A DNA stretch of 15,840 bases. Origin: an uncultured Clostridia bacterium. GTDB lineage: Bacteria; Bacillota; Clostridia; Christensenellales; CALWSW01. The DNA lies in NCBI GenBank assembly GCA_937874755.1, contig CALNBC010000246.1, positions 1 to 15,840 on the forward strand. The letters run 5' to 3'. The position numbers were made by a program, and so were the translations under genes. A model generated the notes under the pieces. It did not search any database. It was not told the origin of the DNA and worked only from the letters and a program-made list of their open reading frames with translations. Positions 4,486-15,840 of this stretch are shown here, in pieces (position 1 is the first letter of the stretch; the number at the start of each line of letters is the position of its first letter).

Positions 4486-5661
4486 TCAAACGACGGAATC
4501 GACAAATTCCTTTATGCGTTTGCAGGCCTCGATAAGGTTGTCCATCGATGTGGCGTACGTCGCGCGGACAAAGCCCTCTCCCGATGCGCCAAAAGCGGTG
4601 CCGGGAACCACTGCCACCTTCTTTTCCATGAGCAATCGGGTGCAGAATGTTTCGGAGTCCAAACCGGTCTTTGAGATTCTGGGGAAGGCGTAAAACGCGC
4701 CTAATGGGTCGAAGCATTCTAATCCCATCTCGTTGAACTGGTGAACTACAAAGTTCCTGCGGCGATTGTACTCCCTGCGCATGGCGCGCACGTCTGAAAA
4801 ATCGGAGTCGAATCCGTGCTTCAGCGCTTCGATAGCAGCCATTTGACTGGTTATAGGGGCGCAGAGCATGGTGAATTGATGAATCTTGAGCATCTGCTGC
4901 AGTAGCGGCTCTGGAGCCAAAACGTATCCCAAGCGCCAGCCGGTCATAGCAAATGCCTTAGAAAAACCGTTAATGGTAATAGTGCGCTCGTACATATCCG
5001 GAATAGAAGCGAAGGCGCAGTGTACTCCCTTGTATGTCAGCTCCGCGTAAATCTCGTCCGAAACGACGATTATATCCGTCCCCTCGAGTGCCTTGGACAT
5101 TTCGACAAGTTCTTCCCTCGTCATTATGCCGCCTGTGGGGTTGTTGGGGAAGGGGAGAATCAGCGCCTTTGTGCGCTCAGTTATGGCGGCTTTGACTACT
5201 TCCGCCGTCAGCTTGAAGCTGTTGTCCGCGGTGGCGCGCAGAGGCACTGCTACGCCGCCGGAAAGCCGCACGCAGGGCATATAGGAAACGTAAGAAGGCT
5301 CGGGTATCAGAACCTCGTCGCCCGGTGTCACTATAGCGCGCATGGCTAGGTCGATGCCCTCGCTGGCGCCCACTGTCATGACGGATTGGCTGGGAGTGTA
5401 ATAGACGCCGAAGCGTTCGCTGTAATACCTGCACACAAGCTCTCGCAGTTCAAGCAACCCCGAGTTGGAGGAGTAGCAGGTGATGCCGTCCTTAAGGGAT
5501 TTTATGCCCGACTCGCGGATATTCCAGGGCGTCACGAAATCAGGCTCGCCCACGCCTAGGCTTATGCAGTCCTTCATCTCGGCAGCAATGTCGAAGAAAC
5601 GGCGGATTCCCGATGGCGGAATGCCGACTACAGTCGGATTTAAAATGCGGTCGTAATTCAC
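4486..5661 (-). CDS. PLP-dependent class I/II aminotransferase
   Basis: A 391-residue fold-type I aminotransferase of the aspartate/aromatic aminotransferase superfamily. It moves an amino group between an amino acid and a 2-oxoacid in the cytoplasm. Visible landmarks are SLGVGEPDF near the N-terminus, the PLP-contact motif FPNNPTGG (Asn174), SDEIYAEL (Asp202, Tyr205) and the Schiff-base lysine in NGFSKAFAMTGWRLGY (Lys235). GEGFVRATYA near the end carries the carboxylate-binding Arg. The start is a GTG sharing four bases (GTGA) with the stop of the Lrp-type gene; AGGTGG lies seven bases upstream. The pairing resembles yugG-yugH of Bacillus subtilis, so the two probably act together. The substrate cannot be read from sequence; aromatic, aspartate or diaminopimelate-type roles are all possible. 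Confidence 0.9.
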   Translation of the reverse strand: MNYDRILNPTVVGIPPSGIRRFFDIAAEMKDCISLGVGEPDFVTPWNIRESGIKSLKDGITCYSSNSGLLELRELVCRYYSERFGVYYTPSQSVMTVGASEGIDLAMRAIVTPGDEVLIPEPSYVSYMPCVRLSGGVAVPLRATADNSFKLTAEVVKAAITERTKALILPFPNNPTGGIMTREELVEMSKALEGTDIIVVSDEIYAELTYKGVHCAFASIPDMYERTITINGFSKAFAMTGWRLGYVLAPEPLLQQMLKIHQFTMLCAPITSQMAAIEALKHGFDSDFSDVRAMRREYNRRRNFVVHQFNEMGLECFDPLGAFYAFPRISKTGLDSETFCTRLLMEKKVAVVPGTAFGASGEGFVRATYATSMDNLIEACKRIKEFVDSVV

Positions 5662-6155
5662 GGTGTGACCACCTGCCTGTGATCGTCCCTGCTGCTGGGC
5701 ATGACGACATGATTATCTTTGTATTTGCGCAGAACAAAGTGGGTGCCTGTGCTGATTACACCATTAAGGACGGATAATTTTTCGGTTACAAACTGCGATA
5801 CCCTGCGAAGGTTGGGGCCGTCTACAAGTACCATGAAGTCATAGCTGCCGCTCATGAGGTAGCACGCCCGAACTTCTGGGTAGCGGGAAATCTGTTCCGC
5901 TATAGCTTCGTATCCCTGGCGGTATTGGGGCGTGACCTTAACTTCTATAAGTGCGTGGATGGTGGATTCAGACTCGGTTTTTTCTTCATCGATAACAGTG
6001 CTGTAACGCAGGAGTATTTTCTCATCTTCCATGCGCTTGATTTCTGCTTTGACGGTCTCCTCGCTCGAATTGAGCATCTGTGCTATTATTGCCGCAGGCG
6101 TACGGGCATCCTGAGCCAAAATGTCGAGGATTTCCATTGAGAAGCTGCGTTCCAT
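5658..6155 (-). CDS. Lrp/AsnC-family transcriptional regulator
   Basis: A 165-residue Lrp/AsnC (feast/famine) regulator. An N-terminal winged helix-turn-helix spans roughly residues 5-50 (ILDILAQDARTPAAIIAQML, then VKAEIKRMEDEKILLRYS). A RAM ligand-binding domain follows (ALIEVKVTPQYR, VRACYLMSGSYDFMVLV, ISTGTHFVL). These proteins form octamers or dimers that sense amino acids. I use ATG 6155 because an ideal AAGGAGG (6163-6169) lies seven bases upstream. An in-frame upstream ATG at 6185 would place that site inside the gene. It is translationally coupled to the aminotransferase, whose substrate or product may be its effector (inference). Confidence 0.92.
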   Translation of the reverse strand: MERSFSMEILDILAQDARTPAAIIAQMLNSSEETVKAEIKRMEDEKILLRYSTVIDEEKTESESTIHALIEVKVTPQYRQGYEAIAEQISRYPEVRACYLMSGSYDFMVLVDGPNLRRVSQFVTEKLSVLNGVISTGTHFVLRKYKDNHVVMPSSRDDHRQVVTP

Positions 6156-6203
6156 AAGAAGACCTCCTTGTTTTTTTATTCGCATCAGTTGCGCGATTTG
6201 TCA

Positions 6204-6311: not shown

Positions 6312-7112
6312 TTAAAGCACGGCGTGAAGCACCGCCGAACACTTCAAATTTGCGCCGCTCCTGCCTCGGGGGAATGTGAGTTGCATTTCGCTGTGCGAAA
6401 TACCTATTTCGTTAGCTACCTCCATTTGGGTGCGTCCATCCAAAAAACGCATTCGCAATATGCGCTGCTCCCTCTCGGTAAGCTTGTTCAGCCCTTCGGA
6501 AATCGCTATGCCCGAAAGCCACTTTTCTTCCGATTCGGTAGTGTCCTTGACCTGATCCATGACGTACACCGCGTCGCTGCCATCGTGGAATATAGGCTCA
6601 AACAGCGATATGGGATCCTGTATCGCGTCCAGAGCATAGGAAACGTCGTCCTCCTCCATGCCAAGCTCTTTGGCTATCTCGGCCATGGTAGGCTCCTTCA
6701 TTTGGGTGTTCATGAGTTTTGTTCTCGCCTGAAGGGCTTTATATGCCGTATCCCTAAGGGAACGGCTTACCCTAACGGAGTTGTTGTCCCTCAAAAACCT
6801 GCGGATTTCCCCCATAATCATCGGAACCGCATAAGTCGAAAAACGAACGTTGTAATTTTCAGGGTCAAAATTGTCGACTGCTTTGAGTAGACCGATGCAG
6901 CCGACTTGGAATATATCGTCCAGTTGCTCGCCGCGGTTTTGAAATCTCTGTATTACCGATAGCACAAGCCGCAAATTTCCGAAAACAAATTCCTCCCGAG
7001 CCTCCTTGTCCCCTGCTTTGACGCGCGTCATCAATGCTTCCATCTGCTCTCGTTTCAATAGTGGAAGGGTGGAAGTATCCACGCCACAGATCTCAACCTT
7101 GTTTGGCTGCAT
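6312..7112 (-). CDS. sigG: Sporulation sigma factor G with aberrant C-terminus
   Basis: RNA polymerase sigma-G, which directs late forespore transcription. The sigma-G hallmark NKVEICGVDTSTLPLL is at residues 4-19. Region 2 (GNLRLVLSVIQRF, DDIFQVGCIGLLKAVDNFD, FSTYAVPMIMGEIRRFLRDN) and region 3 follow. Region 4 begins normally (LTEREQRILRMRFLDGRTQMEVANEIGIS, ending at residue 239). From residue 240 the protein departs from the family: the recognition helix, normally close to QAQVSRLEK, is replaced by HSEMQLTFPRGRSG and a further unrelated tail to residue 266. No single reading-frame change recovers the usual ending by eye. Total length (266 against about 257-260) is near normal. ATG 7112 has GGAGGT six bases upstream. 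It stands alone rather than after spoIIGA-sigE. Confidence 0.9.
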   Translation of the reverse strand: MQPNKVEICGVDTSTLPLLKREQMEALMTRVKAGDKEAREEFVFGNLRLVLSVIQRFQNRGEQLDDIFQVGCIGLLKAVDNFDPENYNVRFSTYAVPMIMGEIRRFLRDNNSVRVSRSLRDTAYKALQARTKLMNTQMKEPTMAEIAKELGMEEDDVSYALDAIQDPISLFEPIFHDGSDAVYVMDQVKDTTESEEKWLSGIAISEGLNKLTEREQRILRMRFLDGRTQMEVANEIGISHSEMQLTFPRGRSGANLKCSAVLHAVL

Positions 7113-10552: not shown

Positions 10553-10581
10553 TTGCTTTTTATAGCGTCCCGTGTTATGGT
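10553..10581 (+). promoter_or_regulatory. Probable promoter of the aro operon leader
   Basis: TTGCTT (10553-10558) and TATGGT (10576-10581) are 17 bases apart. A TG one base before the -10 makes it an extended -10 element. Transcription would start near 10588, about 25 bases before the leader peptide ATG. Confidence 0.5.
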
Positions 10582-10612
10582 CTTTGCATCACAGAATCAG
10601 AAGGAGCCTTTT

Positions 10613-10720
10613 ATGGCAAGCTTCAAACGCGCATCCGATTACCGTTACTTTAGCTTTACCTACTTTTATTTTGGTAAGGCTATTTTCGGTTTGGCTAACA
10701 GCGCGTGTATAAGAATCTGA
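10613..10720 (+). CDS. Aromatic operon leader peptide (Phe/Tyr-rich)
   Basis: A 35-residue ORF beginning MASFKRASDYRYFSFTYFYF. AAGGAG lies six bases before the ATG, a strong site for so short a frame. Ten residues are aromatic (six Phe, four Tyr, no Trp), and residues 10-20 hold eight of them, with all four Phe codons of the cluster TTT. The stop TGA lies 20 bases before the terminator hairpin. The next gene is DAHP synthase, the committed step to Phe and Tyr. The peptide itself probably has no function beyond measuring charged Phe- and Tyr-tRNA. Confidence 0.8.
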   Translation: MASFKRASDYRYFSFTYFYFGKAIFGLANSACIRI

Positions 10721-10739
10721 TTAGGCAATTTTGCATCAG

Positions 10740-10769
10740 AACCGCGGCCAAACCGGCTGCGGTTTTTTT
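10740..10769 (+). terminator. Intrinsic terminator of the aro attenuator
   Basis: AACCGCGGCC (10740-10749) pairs with GGCTGCGGTT (10755-10764), ten pairs with one G-U, over a five-base loop, followed by T to 10769. It lies before the first structural gene, so it must be bypassed for operon expression. Confidence 0.85.
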
Positions 10770-10792
10770 GTACTAAACGGAGGGCATAAATC

Positions 10793-11806
10793 ATGATAGT
10801 CATTCTTAAGCAAAATCCCAACAGGGCTCAGCTTGAAAACCTAATAGACTGGCTACAGAGCAAGGGAATACAGATTCACACCAGCGTCGGTCTGACTCAC
10901 ACGATACTCGGTCTTGTGGGGGACACATCCCAGCTGGACATCGACCTGATTTCTGCTTTGGACATCGTAGAGGGCGTCAGGCGCATTCAGGAACCGTACA
11001 AAAACGCCAACCGCAAATTCCACCCGAACGACACCGTAATCGAAGTCGGCAACACCCGTATAGGTGGCGGAGAGCTCACTGTCATGGCGGGACCTTGCTC
11101 CGTCGAAACGGAAGAGCAGGTCGTCACGGTGGCGAAGGCGGTCAAGGCGAGCGGCGCGACTTTGCTGCGCGGCGGTGCATTCAAGCCTAGGACTTCGCCC
11201 TACTCCTTCCAAGGACTTGGGGCAGATGGTTTAAAGCTGCTTTCCCTCGCTAAGAAGGAGACGGGGCTGCCCATAGTCTCCGAGGTGATGGATGTTTCTC
11301 AGCTGCCGCTTTTCGACGATGTGGACGTCATCCAGGTTGGGGCACGAAACATGCAGAATTTCAACCTGCTCAAGGAACTTGGCAGCCAGAAAAAACCGGT
11401 CATGATAAAGAGGGGGCTTTCCTCAACTTATGAAGAACTGCTGATGAGTGCAGAATACGTTATGTCCGAGGGGAACGAAAACGTGATACTCTGCGAGCGC
11501 GGCATCCGCACCTTCGAAACGTACACAAGGAATATACTCGACCTCGCCTCCGTTCCGATTCTTCACCAGCTTTCGCATCTGCCGGTAATCGTCGACCCGA
11601 GCCACGCGACGGGCAAATCTGGGCTTGTGCCGCCCATGGCTTTGGCGGCAATCGCCGCCGGTGCAGATGGTCTGCTCATCGAGGTGCACAACGACCCTGC
11701 CTGCGCCCTTTGCGACGGTCCCCAGTCCCTAAAGCCCGAAGCTTTCGATAAGCTTGCAAAAAAAATGTTTGCTCTACATGATTTCCTTAAGGACGCGGAG
11801 GACTGA
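10793..11806 (+). CDS. aroF: DAHP synthase, type I-beta with regulatory domain
   Basis: A 337-residue 3-deoxy-D-arabino-heptulosonate-7-phosphate synthase, condensing phosphoenolpyruvate and erythrose 4-phosphate, the first shikimate pathway step. Residues 1 to about 70 form the ferredoxin-like domain that in Thermotoga maritima mediates Tyr/Phe feedback inhibition. The barrel follows with [27 protein letters not shown] and [10 protein letters not shown]. Metal ligands are Cys102, His271, Glu297 and Asp308, almost the same numbers as in the Thermotoga enzyme, and the length matches. ATG 10793 has GGAGGG eight bases upstream and lies directly after the attenuator terminator. First gene of the aro operon, two bases before tyrA. 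Confidence 0.95.
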
Positions 11807-11808
11807 AT

Positions 11809-12645
11809 ATGAACGTCGGAATTGTCGGCCTTGGGCTTATCGGCGGCTCCATGGCGAAGAGCGTCAAAAACCGCACGCTGCACACCGTCTTCGGCATAGA
11901 CACAGACGCCGAAACCATGACCTTTGCCAGAATGAGCGGCGCGATAGACGCCCCGCTTACGGATGAATCCATAGGCGGGTGCGACATAATCCTCCTCGCG
12001 ATAAGACCAAACGCCGCCGTAAATTGGGTGGAAGAAAACGCATCGGCAATATCCAAAAAAGCGATAGTCATCGACCTTTGCGGAGTCAAACGCGCGGTGT
12101 GTGACAGAATTGCGCCCATCGCCGACGAGTATGGCTTTTCGTACATAGGCGGCCACCCGATGGCCGGGAAGGAGCGCAGCGGCTTCGTCAACTCGACGGA
12201 CGACCTCTTTGTGGGAGCGTACATGATACTCACCCCAAACGAGTGCACAGACATTTCGATGCTCGAAACCATCAAGCACTTCTTTTTGGATATAGGCTTC
12301 GCGGGACTCACTTTTTCCACCCCGAGCGAGCACGACAGGATAATCGCTTTCACCTCCCAGTTGGCACACATTGCTTCCAGCGCGTACATCAAATCGCCGG
12401 AAGCGAAGCAACGGCGCGGGTATTCCGCGGGGAGTTATAGGGATATGACCAGGGTCGCGAGACTAGACGAAAATATGTGGACCGAACTCTTTATGGACAA
12501 TTCGGATAACCTCATCGAGCAGCTCGAGCTATTTATCGGTAATCTGAACGAGTACCTTATCGCGCTGAAAGAAGGGGACGAGTCAAAGATTCGCGCGCTC
12601 TTGCGCGAGGGTCGTGAGAAAAAAGCAGAGGCGGGGGGAAACTGA
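11809..12645 (+). CDS. tyrA: Prephenate dehydrogenase
   Basis: A 278-residue NAD(P)-dependent prephenate dehydrogenase, oxidatively decarboxylating prephenate to 4-hydroxyphenylpyruvate for tyrosine. The dinucleotide-binding motif GLGLIGGS is at residues 7-14. The active-site segment is GGHPMAGKERSGF with His116, and the helical C-terminal domain includes TSQLAHIASSAY. The protein ends after that domain with no ACT domain, unlike many longer Bacillota TyrA proteins, so feedback control by tyrosine on this enzyme may be absent. The gene starts two bases after aroF, with GGAGG inside the end of aroF. Confidence 0.93.
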   Translation: MNVGIVGLGLIGGSMAKSVKNRTLHTVFGIDTDAETMTFARMSGAIDAPLTDESIGGCDIILLAIRPNAAVNWVEENASAISKKAIVIDLCGVKRAVCDRIAPIADEYGFSYIGGHPMAGKERSGFVNSTDDLFVGAYMILTPNECTDISMLETIKHFFLDIGFAGLTFSTPSEHDRIIAFTSQLAHIASSAYIKSPEAKQRRGYSAGSYRDMTRVARLDENMWTELFMDNSDNLIEQLELFIGNLNEYLIALKEGDESKIRALLREGREKKAEAGGN

Positions 12646-12646
12646 T

Positions 12647-13711
12647 TTGGATGTGCGAACCGTTCGAATAAACGCCAGCAAGAGCTACGACGTTACCATA
12701 GGCAAGGGTCTGCTTTCCGAATGCGGCGGTATACTGCACTCTGCACTTGGAGTTTGCCACGCGGCAGTAGTGACGGACAGCACAGTGGAAAAACTCTACC
12801 TAGCCGAGGTGCAAAAGAGCCTTGCGGGGGCGGGTTTTGCCGTCAGTTCATTTGCTTTTCCCGCGGGCGAGCGGTCAAAGAACATGGCTGTTCTTTCAGA
12901 CCTGCTCGAATTTCTGGCAGAAAACCAGCTGACGAGGACGGACTGCGTCGTCGCCCTGGGCGGCGGAGTCGTGGGCGATTTGGCGGGATTCGCCGCAGGT
13001 TGTTATTTGAGGGGAATAAAATATGCCCAAATCCCGACGACGCTGCTTGCCGCCGTCGATTCGTCGGTCGGCGGTAAAACCGCAATAGACCTTCGCGCCG
13101 GGAAAAACCTCGCGGGGCTGTTCCTGCAGCCTTCTGCGGTAATTTGCGACACGAACTGCATGAACACCTTGCCCGAAGGGGGGTTCGCCTGCGGCGTTGC
13201 CGAGGCGATCAAGACCGGAATACTAGAAGGCGAGGAACTCTTTACACTACTTGAAAACGGCAGAGCGCGGGAAAACATTGCCGAGATAATCGCCCGTTGC
13301 GTCACCTTCAAAGGCAAGGTGGTGGAGCAGGACGAGTTCGAAAACGGCGCTAGAAAGACGCTCAACTTGGGGCATACAGTAGGACATGCGGTAGAAAAAT
13401 GCAGCGGCTATTCCATTCCCCACGGGCAAGCCGTGGCGATTGGAACGGCCGTAATAGCGCGCTCCGCCGCATCGTATGGCTGTTGTGATGCCGAGAGCGC
13501 AAGGCGAATTATAAAAGTGCTGGAAGTAAACGGGCTGCCTACCCACACGGATTTTTCCGCAATAGCGCTTGCGGATGCCGCGCTGCACGACAAAAAGCGC
13601 GCAGGCAACTCCATTACCCTCGTTATGCCGAGGCGAATAGGTGAGTGTACGTTAGAAACCGTACCGATTGAAGAACTACTACCCATAATCGAAGCTGGAT
13701 TGGAGGGTTAA
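12647..13711 (+). CDS. aroB: 3-dehydroquinate synthase
   Basis: A 354-residue zinc- and NAD-dependent 3-dehydroquinate synthase, converting DAHP to 3-dehydroquinate. Motifs (residues from the chosen start): LGGGVVGDLAGFAAG (NAD binding, about 104-118), QIPTTLLAAVDSSVGGKTA, and zinc ligands Glu186 (GVAEAIKTG), His243 (LNLGHTVGHA) and His259 (IPHGQAVAIG). I choose TTG 12647, because a GGGGGGAA stretch lies six bases upstream and it begins one base after the tyrA stop. An ATG at 12614 would overlap tyrA by 32 bases and add an unusual basic tail; GTG 12653 is also possible. Two bases separate it from aroA. Confidence 0.94.
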   Translation: MDVRTVRINASKSYDVTIGKGLLSECGGILHSALGVCHAAVVTDSTVEKLYLAEVQKSLAGAGFAVSSFAFPAGERSKNMAVLSDLLEFLAENQLTRTDCVVALGGGVVGDLAGFAAGCYLRGIKYAQIPTTLLAAVDSSVGGKTAIDLRAGKNLAGLFLQPSAVICDTNCMNTLPEGGFACGVAEAIKTGILEGEELFTLLENGRARENIAEIIARCVTFKGKVVEQDEFENGARKTLNLGHTVGHAVEKCSGYSIPHGQAVAIGTAVIARSAASYGCCDAESARRIIKVLEVNGLPTHTDFSAIALADAALHDKKRAGNSITLVMPRRIGECTLETVPIEELLPIIEAGLEG

Positions 13712-13713
13712 GA

Positions 13714-14967
13714 ATGAACGTCAAAGTCACGCCTTCGCCCCTTCGCGGAAAGATAACCGCGATACCCTCCAAATCGGACGCCCATAGGCTGCTGATTTGC
13801 TCCGCGCTGGCGGATGCACAAACCGAGCTTTCCCTGCCCCGTACCTCCGAGGATATCGACGCCACCATCGGGTGCTTGCGCTCCCTCGGCGCGAAAATTG
13901 AAAGAGACGGCGAAATCTTACACATCACCCCGATAACGAATCCTGCTGATTCCCCGCTATTGGACTGCGCGGAAAGCGGCTCTACGCTAAGGTTCCTGTT
14001 GCCCGTAGCAGCAGCGCTGTGCGAAAGCGCGGGTTTCATCGGTAGCGGCAGACTCCCCGAAAGACCCCTTGGGCAACTCATTGGCGCGATGGAGGAACAT
14101 GAAGTGACTTTTTCGCAGGAAAAGCTGCCGTTTGCAACAAGCGGTAAGCTGTTGAGCGGGAAATATGTTCTGCCCGGGAATATCAGCTCGCAATACATCA
14201 CGGGTCTGCTGCTCGCATTGCCGCTATTAGCTAAGGACAGCGAAATATCGCTGACAACCAGGCTGGAATCCTCCGCCTATGTGGATATTACTCTCAATTC
14301 ATTGGGGTGCTTTGGGGTAAATATAGAGCGAACAAAGAACGGCTTCTTTATAAAAGGCAATCAGCGTTATCGCTCTCCTATTAGGGTGGATGTCGACGGT
14401 GACTGGTCCAATGCAGCGTTCTTCCTTTGCGCAGGCGCGATAGGCGGCAACATAACACTTACCGGTCTTAACGCGGATTCACCCCAGGGTGACAGGCGCA
14501 TATTAGAGTTCCTTCGTAAATTCGGCGCGGATATAACCGAATCTAAAGGTGCAATAGCCGTTAAGAGCTTGCGCCTCGTCGGGTGCGAGATAGACATAGC
14601 CGAAACCCCCGACCTTTTGCCCGCGCTCGCCGTGGTCGCTGCCTTTTCGGAAGGGGAGACCCGGTTTATCAACGCATCGCGCCTTCGACTAAAGGAAAGC
14701 GACCGCCTGAATTCCACCGCTGCCATGCTAAACGCTCTGGGAGGAAATGCAACAGAACTCCCCGACGCGCTTATAGTCCGCGGAACAGCGCTGGCAGGGG
14801 GTGCAGTGGACAGCTTCCACGACCACCGAACAGCCATGGCGGCGGCAATCGCGGGAACTTACTGCAAAGCGCCCGTAATCATAACCGATGCGGGAGCGGC
14901 GGCGAAGTCGTACCCGAGCTTCTATGAGGATTTCGCAAAGCTGGGAGGGAAAGTAGATGTCGTCTGA
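13714..14967 (+). CDS. aroA: 3-phosphoshikimate 1-carboxyvinyltransferase (EPSP synthase)
   Basis: A 417-residue EPSP synthase, transferring enolpyruvate from PEP to shikimate 3-phosphate. Visible are PSKSDAHRLLI (Lys20, Ser21, Arg25, substrate binding), ESGSTLRFLLP (residues 87-97, the PEP and glyphosate-contact loop), GDWSNAAFFL, the catalytic-Asp region ETPDLLPALAV, LRLKESDRL and DHRTAMAAAIAG. The loop reads ESGST where Escherichia coli has GNAGT, a common clostridial form. ATG 13714 has GGAGGG about seven bases upstream. Its last 11 bases overlap the aroC start, so the two are translationally coupled. Confidence 0.95.
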   Translation: MNVKVTPSPLRGKITAIPSKSDAHRLLICSALADAQTELSLPRTSEDIDATIGCLRSLGAKIERDGEILHITPITNPADSPLLDCAESGSTLRFLLPVAAALCESAGFIGSGRLPERPLGQLIGAMEEHEVTFSQEKLPFATSGKLLSGKYVLPGNISSQYITGLLLALPLLAKDSEISLTTRLESSAYVDITLNSLGCFGVNIERTKNGFFIKGNQRYRSPIRVDVDGDWSNAAFFLCAGAIGGNITLTGLNADSPQGDRRILEFLRKFGADITESKGAIAVKSLRLVGCEIDIAETPDLLPALAVVAAFSEGETRFINASRLRLKESDRLNSTAAMLNALGGNATELPDALIVRGTALAGGAVDSFHDHRTAMAAAIAGTYCKAPVIITDAGAAAKSYPSFYEDFAKLGGKVDVV

Positions 14968-15840
14968 ATTCGGCAAAAACATAAGGGTAAGCGTGTTCGG
15001 TCAGTCCCACGGCAAGGCAATAGGTGTAGTTATAGATAACCTGCCTGCGGGCGAAGAAATAGACGAAGCCGAGCTGCTCGCGTTCATGAACCGCAGAAAA
15101 CCTGGTGGCGTACTCGCCACCAAGCGCAAGGAGGACGACGTTCCGGTGTTCCTTGCTGGTCTTGTGGACGGGAAGACCAGCGGCAGTCCCCTTTGCGCAA
15201 TCATCGAAAATGCAGATGCCCGCCCAAAGGATTATGAAGCCCTCTCCACAGTCCCACGGCCTTCCCACGCGGATTACACGGCTTTCGTCAAGTGGGGGGG
15301 CGGCGCGGATATGCGCGGCGGCGGGCATTTTTCCGGCAGGCTGACCGCGCCTCTTTGCATCGCCGGAGGAATAGCCAAGCAGCTGCTCGCCCGAAGGGGT
15401 ATATTTGTCGGGGCGCACTTGCTCGAGGTCGGCGGAGTAAAGGACGCGCCCTTTCCCCTTTACCCGGGCGGCGAACTATTTGCACAAATTGCGAACAAGG
15501 AATTCCCCGCGATAGACGACGAACGCGCAACAGCGATGCAGGCGGCGATTGCCGAGGCGGCAAAGGACGCGGATTCAATCGGCGGGGTAGTCGAATGCGC
15601 CGCCATCGGGCTGCCCGCCGGGATAGGCTCGCCCATGTTCGAGGGCGTGGAAAACAGGCTCGCAGGGGCGATATTCGGCATACCTGCGGTTAAGGGGATA
15701 GAGTTCGGCGCGGGTTTTGAAAGCGCAAGAAAGCGCGGCAGCGATAACAACGACCCCTTTTGCATAGACGATAAAGGAGAAATAAAGACCACCAAGAACG
15801 ACTCCGGCGGCATACTCGGCGGCATCACAAACGGTATGCC
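14957..15840 (+). CDS. aroC: Chorismate synthase, 3' end beyond the window
   Basis: The first roughly 294 residues of chorismate synthase, the reduced-FMN enzyme that forms chorismate from EPSP. The protein begins MSSEFGKNIRVSVFGQSHGK. The first signature, GQSHG (usually GESHG), is at residues 15-19. RRKPGGVLATKRKEDD, RPSHADYTAFVKWGGGADMRGGGHFSGR and DSGGILGGITNGMP follow in family order. The frame has no stop before base 15840; the full family length is about 350-390 residues, so perhaps 60-90 are missing. ATG 14957 has GGGAGGG seven bases upstream and overlaps the aroA stop. Last visible gene of the aro operon. Confidence 0.95.
   Translation, partial: MSSEFGKNIRVSVFGQSHGKAIGVVIDNLPAGEEIDEAELLAFMNRRKPGGVLATKRKEDDVPVFLAGLVDGKTSGSPLCAIIENADARPKDYEALSTVPRPSHADYTAFVKWGGGADMRGGGHFSGRLTAPLCIAGGIAKQLLARRGIFVGAHLLEVGGVKDAPFPLYPGGELFAQIANKEFPAIDDERATAMQAAIAEAAKDADSIGGVVECAAIGLPAGIGSPMFEGVENRLAGAIFGIPAVKGIEFGAGFESARKRGSDNNDPFCIDDKGEIKTTKNDSGGILGGITNGM

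Follow-up and report, generated by a model that had tools for sequence, protein, structure and literature searches.

A putative phenylalanine/tyrosine leader-peptide attenuator upstream of the aroF operon in Clostridia

The 15,840-nt stretch of DNA analysed here (the window), from an uncultured Clostridia bacterium, carries upstream of its aroF operon a short Phe/Tyr-rich ORF that, judging from its sequence and variation among relatives, is very probably the leader of a ribosome-mediated transcription attenuator sensing charged tRNA-Phe and tRNA-Tyr. Sequence comparison establishes the ORF, its Phe/Tyr codon cluster, the terminator, an antiterminator strand that pairs with the terminator arm, and a hairpin, P2; a further pairing, P1, is predicted by folding to hide the antiterminator strand. 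With Phe and Tyr in ample supply, the ribosome would reach the stop codon and P1 and P2 would re-form behind it, letting the terminator fold and turning the operon off. When either amino acid is short, the ribosome would stall within 10640-10672 and cover the P1 and P2 strands; the antiterminator strand, set free, would capture the emerging terminator arm, and RNA polymerase would read on into aroF-tyrA-aroB-aroA-aroC.

The leader, its signals and the operon

The features are as follows, all on the forward strand.

10553..10581 (+): candidate promoter by eye, TTGCTT-17 nt-TATGGT with an upstream TG (extended -10)
10601..10606 (+): Shine-Dalgarno site AAGGAG of the leader ORF, read from the sequence, 6 nt 5' of the ATG
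10613..10720 (+): leader peptide ORF, 35 codons plus TGA, with counterparts in relatives
10635..10644 (+): P1 5' strand, predicted by folding to pair with 10687-10694 and hide the antiterminator strand
10640..10672 (+): Phe/Tyr codon cluster, 8 of 11 codons, putative stalling site
10652..10660 (+): 5' strand of hairpin P2, AGCUUUACC
10673..10681 (+): 3' strand of hairpin P2, GGUAAGGCU
10687..10696 (+): antiterminator strand, CGGUUUGGCU, within the ORF, forming 10 pairs with 10746-10755
10738..10769 (+): intrinsic terminator (12-bp stem, 5-nt loop, U-tract), from a terminator scan and the terminators at relatives' leader loci
10746..10755 (+): antiterminator partner, GGCCAAACCG, made up of terminator 5' arm, loop and first 3'-arm base
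10793..11806 (+): aroF-type DAHP synthase, first gene of the operon (NCBIfam NF006421, 485 bits, cut-off 335)
11809..12645 (+): tyrA, prephenate dehydrogenase (Pfam PF02153 and PF20463 over cut-off; best NCBIfam model under its cut-off)
12614..13711 (+): aroB, 3-dehydroquinate synthase, start uncertain (TIGR01357, 342 bits, cut-off 305)
13714..14967 (+): aroA, EPSP synthase (TIGR01356, 369 bits, cut-off 287)
14957..15840 (+): aroC, chorismate synthase, truncated by the window end (TIGR00033, 290 bits, cut-off 212)

Translation of 10613-10720 gives MASFKRASDYRYFSFTYFYFGKAIFGLANSACIRI, 35 residues followed by a stop; residues 10-20 read YRYFSFTYFYF, with Phe or Tyr at 8 of the 11 positions, and the leader has codons for both amino acids and none for Trp. 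Sequence and profile matches thus confirm the initial annotation's description of a 35-codon ORF with an AAGGAG site, an 8-of-11 aromatic cluster and a terminator ahead of five aromatic genes, and its estimate of 20 bases from stop to terminator was about right: the stem starts 17 nt downstream of the stop codon (10718-10720). In the assembly that contains the window, the site's F/Y codon pattern is unique to the leader at zero mismatches; once a single mismatch is tolerated, it is no rarer than the reversed control (4 against 5). Compared with Pfam, the leader peptide has no match at E 0.001.

The terminator stem (10738-10766) continues into the T-tract. A simple terminator scan found 2 overlapping terminator-like sites where shuffles gave a mean of 0.8, in itself weak evidence; the folding energy of the 196-nt leader lies 5.7 sd under that of its own shuffles. 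The candidate promoter is absent from the output of a consensus promoter scan, for which its -35 is too weak; a TGnTATnnT-like element occurs at a comparable position in many of 24 aligned relatives.

The assembly that contains the window comprises 1.87 Mb in 432 contigs and is 72% complete, with a pheA-type gene on a separate contig (C243). In several relatives (e.g., G003, G009, G013 and G025), pheA shares contig and strand with aroF and lies, by eye, some 4-6 kb beyond it, which makes it likely that the complete operon supplies Phe as well as Tyr. The best named matches of the window's AroF, among those listed, are from Oscillibacter and other Clostridia, at no more than 79% identity. Elsewhere in the window, the reverse strand has a sigma-factor-like ORF by eye at 6312-7112, the C-terminus of which looks out of frame, and adjoining ORFs at 4486-6185 resembling, also by eye, an aminotransferase and an Lrp/AsnC-type regulator, possibly tied to amino acid metabolism.

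Pairing, coding and stepwise folding of the leader RNA

Covariation was counted in a close group of 25 loci (alignment A1), with partners picked by best complementarity, so that these counts lean towards pairing. P2 is paired in 219 of 225 cells, of which 13, at 5 of its 9 positions, are changed on both sides; the antiterminator duplex has standard pairs in 231 of 250 cells, with 23 changed on both sides, at 8 of 10 positions. Stronger than these counts is a swap test, in which partners were exchanged between 83 representatives with dissimilar peptides over 5000 permutations: the native antiterminator duplexes total -1371 kcal/mol, against a permuted mean of -929 (sd 25; best permutation -1041; z -17.4), and a control stretch 5' of the cluster gives z -1.5. 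Against shuffles of their own sequences, the same 83 antiterminators reach z -21. Taken locus by locus, the native partner is in the best 5% for 38 of the 83 and in the best 20% for 67; taken singly, 54 of 111 antiterminator duplexes beat 95% of composition shuffles and 57 do not. Among 24 close loci the majority of native duplexes look no better than swapped ones, the sequences being so alike that the test is uninformative for most members.

The same close group separates constraint on the peptide from constraint on the RNA. In all 25 loci a whole number of codons separates the ATG from the in-frame AAG-GCT codons, and the stretch between AAG-GCT and the U-tract is spread over the three frames (10, 8 and 7 loci). 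Three cluster positions alternate between Phe and Tyr (13 F/12 Y, 12 Y/7 F and 15 F/8 Y), and the cluster codons also vary synonymously (TAC/TAT, TTT/TTC); the base-paired tail codons are nearly fixed (AAG in 24, GCT in 22, GGT in 20 and TTG in 22 of the 25 loci). Taken together, the frame, the interchange and the fixed tail suggest that selection maintains aromatic residues in the cluster and base pairing in the ORF's tail. The initial annotation had proposed looking in relatives for a conserved cluster in an otherwise drifting peptide, and their leaders do keep the ATG, the ribosome site and the aromatic cluster while the N-terminus and C-terminal end drift; its central suggestion, a translated Phe/Tyr attenuator, is strongly supported by this comparative evidence.

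Stepwise folding followed the order of events under an assumed ribosome footprint, with the RNA free beginning 16 nt past the first A-site base. With no ribosome, P1 and P2 are already formed when the polymerase is at 10715-10745 (0.94 and 1.00); at 10760 the predicted probabilities are P1 0.94, P2 1.00, antiterminator 0.00 and terminator 0.50, the terminator climbing to 0.90 at 10766. With the ribosome A site at Y10, F15 or F20 and the polymerase at 10760, the antiterminator reaches 0.95 and the terminator 0.00, with P1 at 0.00 and P2 at 0.00-0.33. At 10763 the antiterminator of the stalled complex is mixed (0.08 to 0.70), and at 10766-10770, once the 3' arm of the terminator is out, equilibrium prefers the terminator (0.56-0.80) to the antiterminator (0.14-0.30) in this stalled state too, which counts against the model and means that the antiterminator would have to persist kinetically. 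Also against the model, ribosome-free RNA at exactly 10757 briefly favours the antiterminator (0.79).

The leader thus has the parts of a ribosome-mediated transcription attenuator: a short ORF with a ribosome-binding site 5' of the operon and in conserved frame, a cluster of codons for the operon's product amino acids, an intrinsic terminator between leader and first gene, a coevolving antiterminator that excludes the terminator, and an alternative hairpin that, by folding, hides the antiterminator strand unless a ribosome stalls, with P2 covarying.

Spread of the leader, T-boxes and rival explanations

Leaders were sought by a strict rule: an ORF of 10-60 codons with a Shine-Dalgarno match and at least 6 F/Y/W within 11 residues, in the 350 nt upstream of aroF. 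A near-relative set of 110 loci, selected by AroF similarity, combined 30 loci kept from 61 genomes, the window's own included (AroF in 42 of them), with the top 80 loci from a named genome collection. Of the 110, 71 have a leader ORF (69 distinct peptides), whereas the reverse complement yields 0 of 110 and dinucleotide shuffling 0.6% of 3300 sequences. An evenly drawn sample of the class, with AroF in 147 of 196 genomes, gave 128 loci, mostly one per genome plus nine second copies, of which 68 pass (reverse complement, 2 of 128). L232, among these 68, proved to be a T-box mistaken for an ORF and was rejected, leaving 67; some further passes look weak (e.g., L132, L135 and L163), and at L215, L222 and L223, where the AroF match begins inside the protein, the upstream positions are uncertain. 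A phylum-wide sample added 8 of its 28 best new loci (reverse complement, 0 of 28). The 79 leader-bearing genomes fall into 39 numbered families. A looser scan (600 nt upstream of aroF, Shine-Dalgarno optional) scores at least 6 at 18 of the 39 near-relative loci that are leaderless by the strict rule, some of these unconvincing. The initial annotation had called such a leader uncommon; at 71 of 110 and 68 of 128 loci (one of the latter the T-box), it is on the contrary common upstream of aroF in the Clostridia sampled.

Among 136 leader loci with distinct peptides (a set that still contains L232), 111 have a terminator 3' of the cluster, against 1.3% of shuffled sequences; the scan found none at the other 25. 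A group of ten divergent leaders (L156, L169, L170, L171, L185, L188, L191, L200, L203 and L207) has, by eye, a second aromatic patch and a GYFxCKK-like tail, and seven of the ten contain Trp. AroF of the same type also occurs at six loci (L094, L104, L108, L110, L056 and L089) in records titled Planctomycetia, Bacteroidaceae, Treponemataceae/Treponema or Lentisphaerae, two of which (L094 and L110) have an F/Y leader by the strict rule; either these are mislabelled bins, or aroF was transferred together with its attenuator.

A scan of the same kind, with a terminator search, covered about 1.5 kb beside each match at 55 pheA, trpE and ilvC loci in the order and found no F/Y/W cluster, nor any Trp cluster at the 8 trpE loci in the order; a Leu-rich hit at one locus (L291) was taken as chance. 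Limited to this distance and to these operons, it says little about the rest of the genome.

Could something other than tRNA shortage act through the same leader? One possibility is that the nascent aromatic-rich peptide arrests the ribosome in response to a metabolite, in the manner of TnaC or ErmCL, and that this arrest drives antitermination. Leader translation and the antiterminator would fit equally well, and the divergent group does retain its distal GYFxCKK-like end. Arrest motifs, however, have fixed residues, unlike the class-level conservation seen here: the aromatic class is kept and the residues are not, with Phe, Tyr and sometimes Trp interchanging and position and spacing shifting, and the cluster residues are the amino acids of the operon's own pathway. 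Arrest by the peptide is accordingly considered improbable, though the best placed of the rivals.

Still less probable is that the ORF encodes a small functional protein to which the terminator belongs: its start and frame are indeed conserved, but leader peptides run from 17 residues to 60 (the upper limit of the scan) with free ends, the tail is conserved at the level of RNA, its AAG, GCT and TTG codons tracking base pairing, and the peptide lacks a Pfam match at the threshold given above.

T-boxes, which sense tRNA charging as the leader is proposed to do, are present 5' of aroF at other loci in Clostridia. Rfam scans covered 132 loci, part of the 110, 128 and 28 sets. At the gathering score a T-box lies upstream of aroF, in its direction, at 13 of 85 loci leaderless by the strict rule (by batch 0 of 20, 0 of 6, 2 of 20, 8 of 20, L232, and 2 of 18) and at 0 of 47 leader-bearing loci (batches of 6, 19, 20 and 2). 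The window's own genome has T-boxes elsewhere (9 matches, 3 over cut-off), one of them 5' of an ileS-like gene by eye. Two over the Rfam cut-off, at L111 1501-1739 (C59) and L113 1501-1746 (C296), precede, by eye, genes for AMP-binding acyl-CoA synthetases, to our knowledge an unusual T-box target. As improbable as the small-protein reading is that a ligand- or tRNA-binding RNA (riboswitch or T-box) controls the window's operon beside a fortuitous ORF: despite the T-boxes at other aroF loci and in the same genome, no Rfam family, the T-box RF00230 included, reaches its gathering score anywhere in the window, the 47 scanned leader-bearing loci have no T-box, the reading frame is conserved, and Phe and Tyr interchange.

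Known systems, codon choice and meaning

In Proteobacteria, leader-peptide attenuators (pheA, pheST, trp, his, ilv) combine codons for the end product, mutually exclusive antiterminator and terminator, and a protector hairpin; in Bacillota, amino-acid genes are usually seen as T-box (or TRAP) territory. The window's leader resembles the proteobacterial systems in all three respects, a likeness of architecture alone, and differs in mixing Phe and Tyr in one cluster and in its clostridial host.

Closer counterparts are in print. uORFC-13-1, a uORF upstream of aroF in Acholeplasma with Phe codon(s), a ribosome-binding site and a terminator, for which attenuation was proposed, matches the window's leader in those features; its description, by which alone the two were compared, gives 24 representatives from Acholeplasma and unnamed environmental sequences only, with "at least one" Phe residue, and mentions neither Tyr codons nor Clostridia (PMC8632094). 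Two uORFs reported in a survey of five genomes, Clostridium novyi among them, likewise encode Phe and Tyr at shikimate genes (PMC6429828, as far as its accessible text goes), and if they are from C. novyi they may belong to the same family as the window's leader. In bacilli, histidine leader peptides before hisS*/hisZ replace a T-box, the same substitution of a regular leader peptide within Firmicutes, for a different amino acid, genes and class; aroF is absent from the main text of that paper (PMC2965389). Nor does aroF occur in the accessible text of PMC11109978, and PMC1262725, by the portion available, covers Actinobacteria. With hisS/hisZ leaders in Firmicutes and Phe/Tyr uORFs at shikimate genes both published, the kind is already known, and the idea of an aroF leader is itself in print for another lineage. 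Among the open-access papers listed, judged by titles and the openings of abstracts, nothing dealt with the spread of the leader in Clostridia. The initial annotation's "possibly undescribed" is therefore too broad for the kind, given the hisS*/hisZ, Acholeplasma aroF and shikimate examples in the portions of those papers available, and stands for the clostridial spread within the literature searched. Added here are how widely the leader occurs in Clostridia, its mixture of Phe and Tyr in one cluster, the covariation of the switch and the pattern of T-boxes at leaderless loci.

The codons used may also carry information. Neither a trpE-type nor a trpA-type gene was found in the window's 72%-complete assembly, which matches a leader without Trp; chorismate-binding (trpE-type) genes occur in 8 of 41 genomes of the order. 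trpA was sought in 79 genomes, those of 65 of the 67 leader-bearing class loci (minus G191 and G201) and all 14 of the order, and was over cut-off in 35. It is present in 15 of 22 genomes with Trp anywhere in the leader against 20 of 57 without (p 0.011, kinship ignored), and in 15 of 21 with Trp near the cluster against 20 of 58 without (p 0.005, kinship likewise ignored); with Trp labels assigned by eye, the counts by genome are 15 of 20 against 20 of 59, and those by family 12 of 14 against 9 of 25. The genomes being related, this association is a trend only, and a hint that the codon set of the leader follows what the cell makes.

Whether leader-peptide attenuation is old and standard at the aromatic operon across Clostridia, exchanged with T-boxes and with codons tuned lineage by lineage (Phe and Tyr alone where Trp is not synthesised, Trp added where it is), is a proposition for which the chances seem evenly balanced. 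A common leader-peptide attenuator at this operon, if true, would change how such genomes are annotated. Loci with a leader and loci with a T-box would form a natural set for asking how one locus switches between two tRNA-sensing devices, and the model makes a testable prediction, that the composition of the leader tracks biosynthetic capacity.
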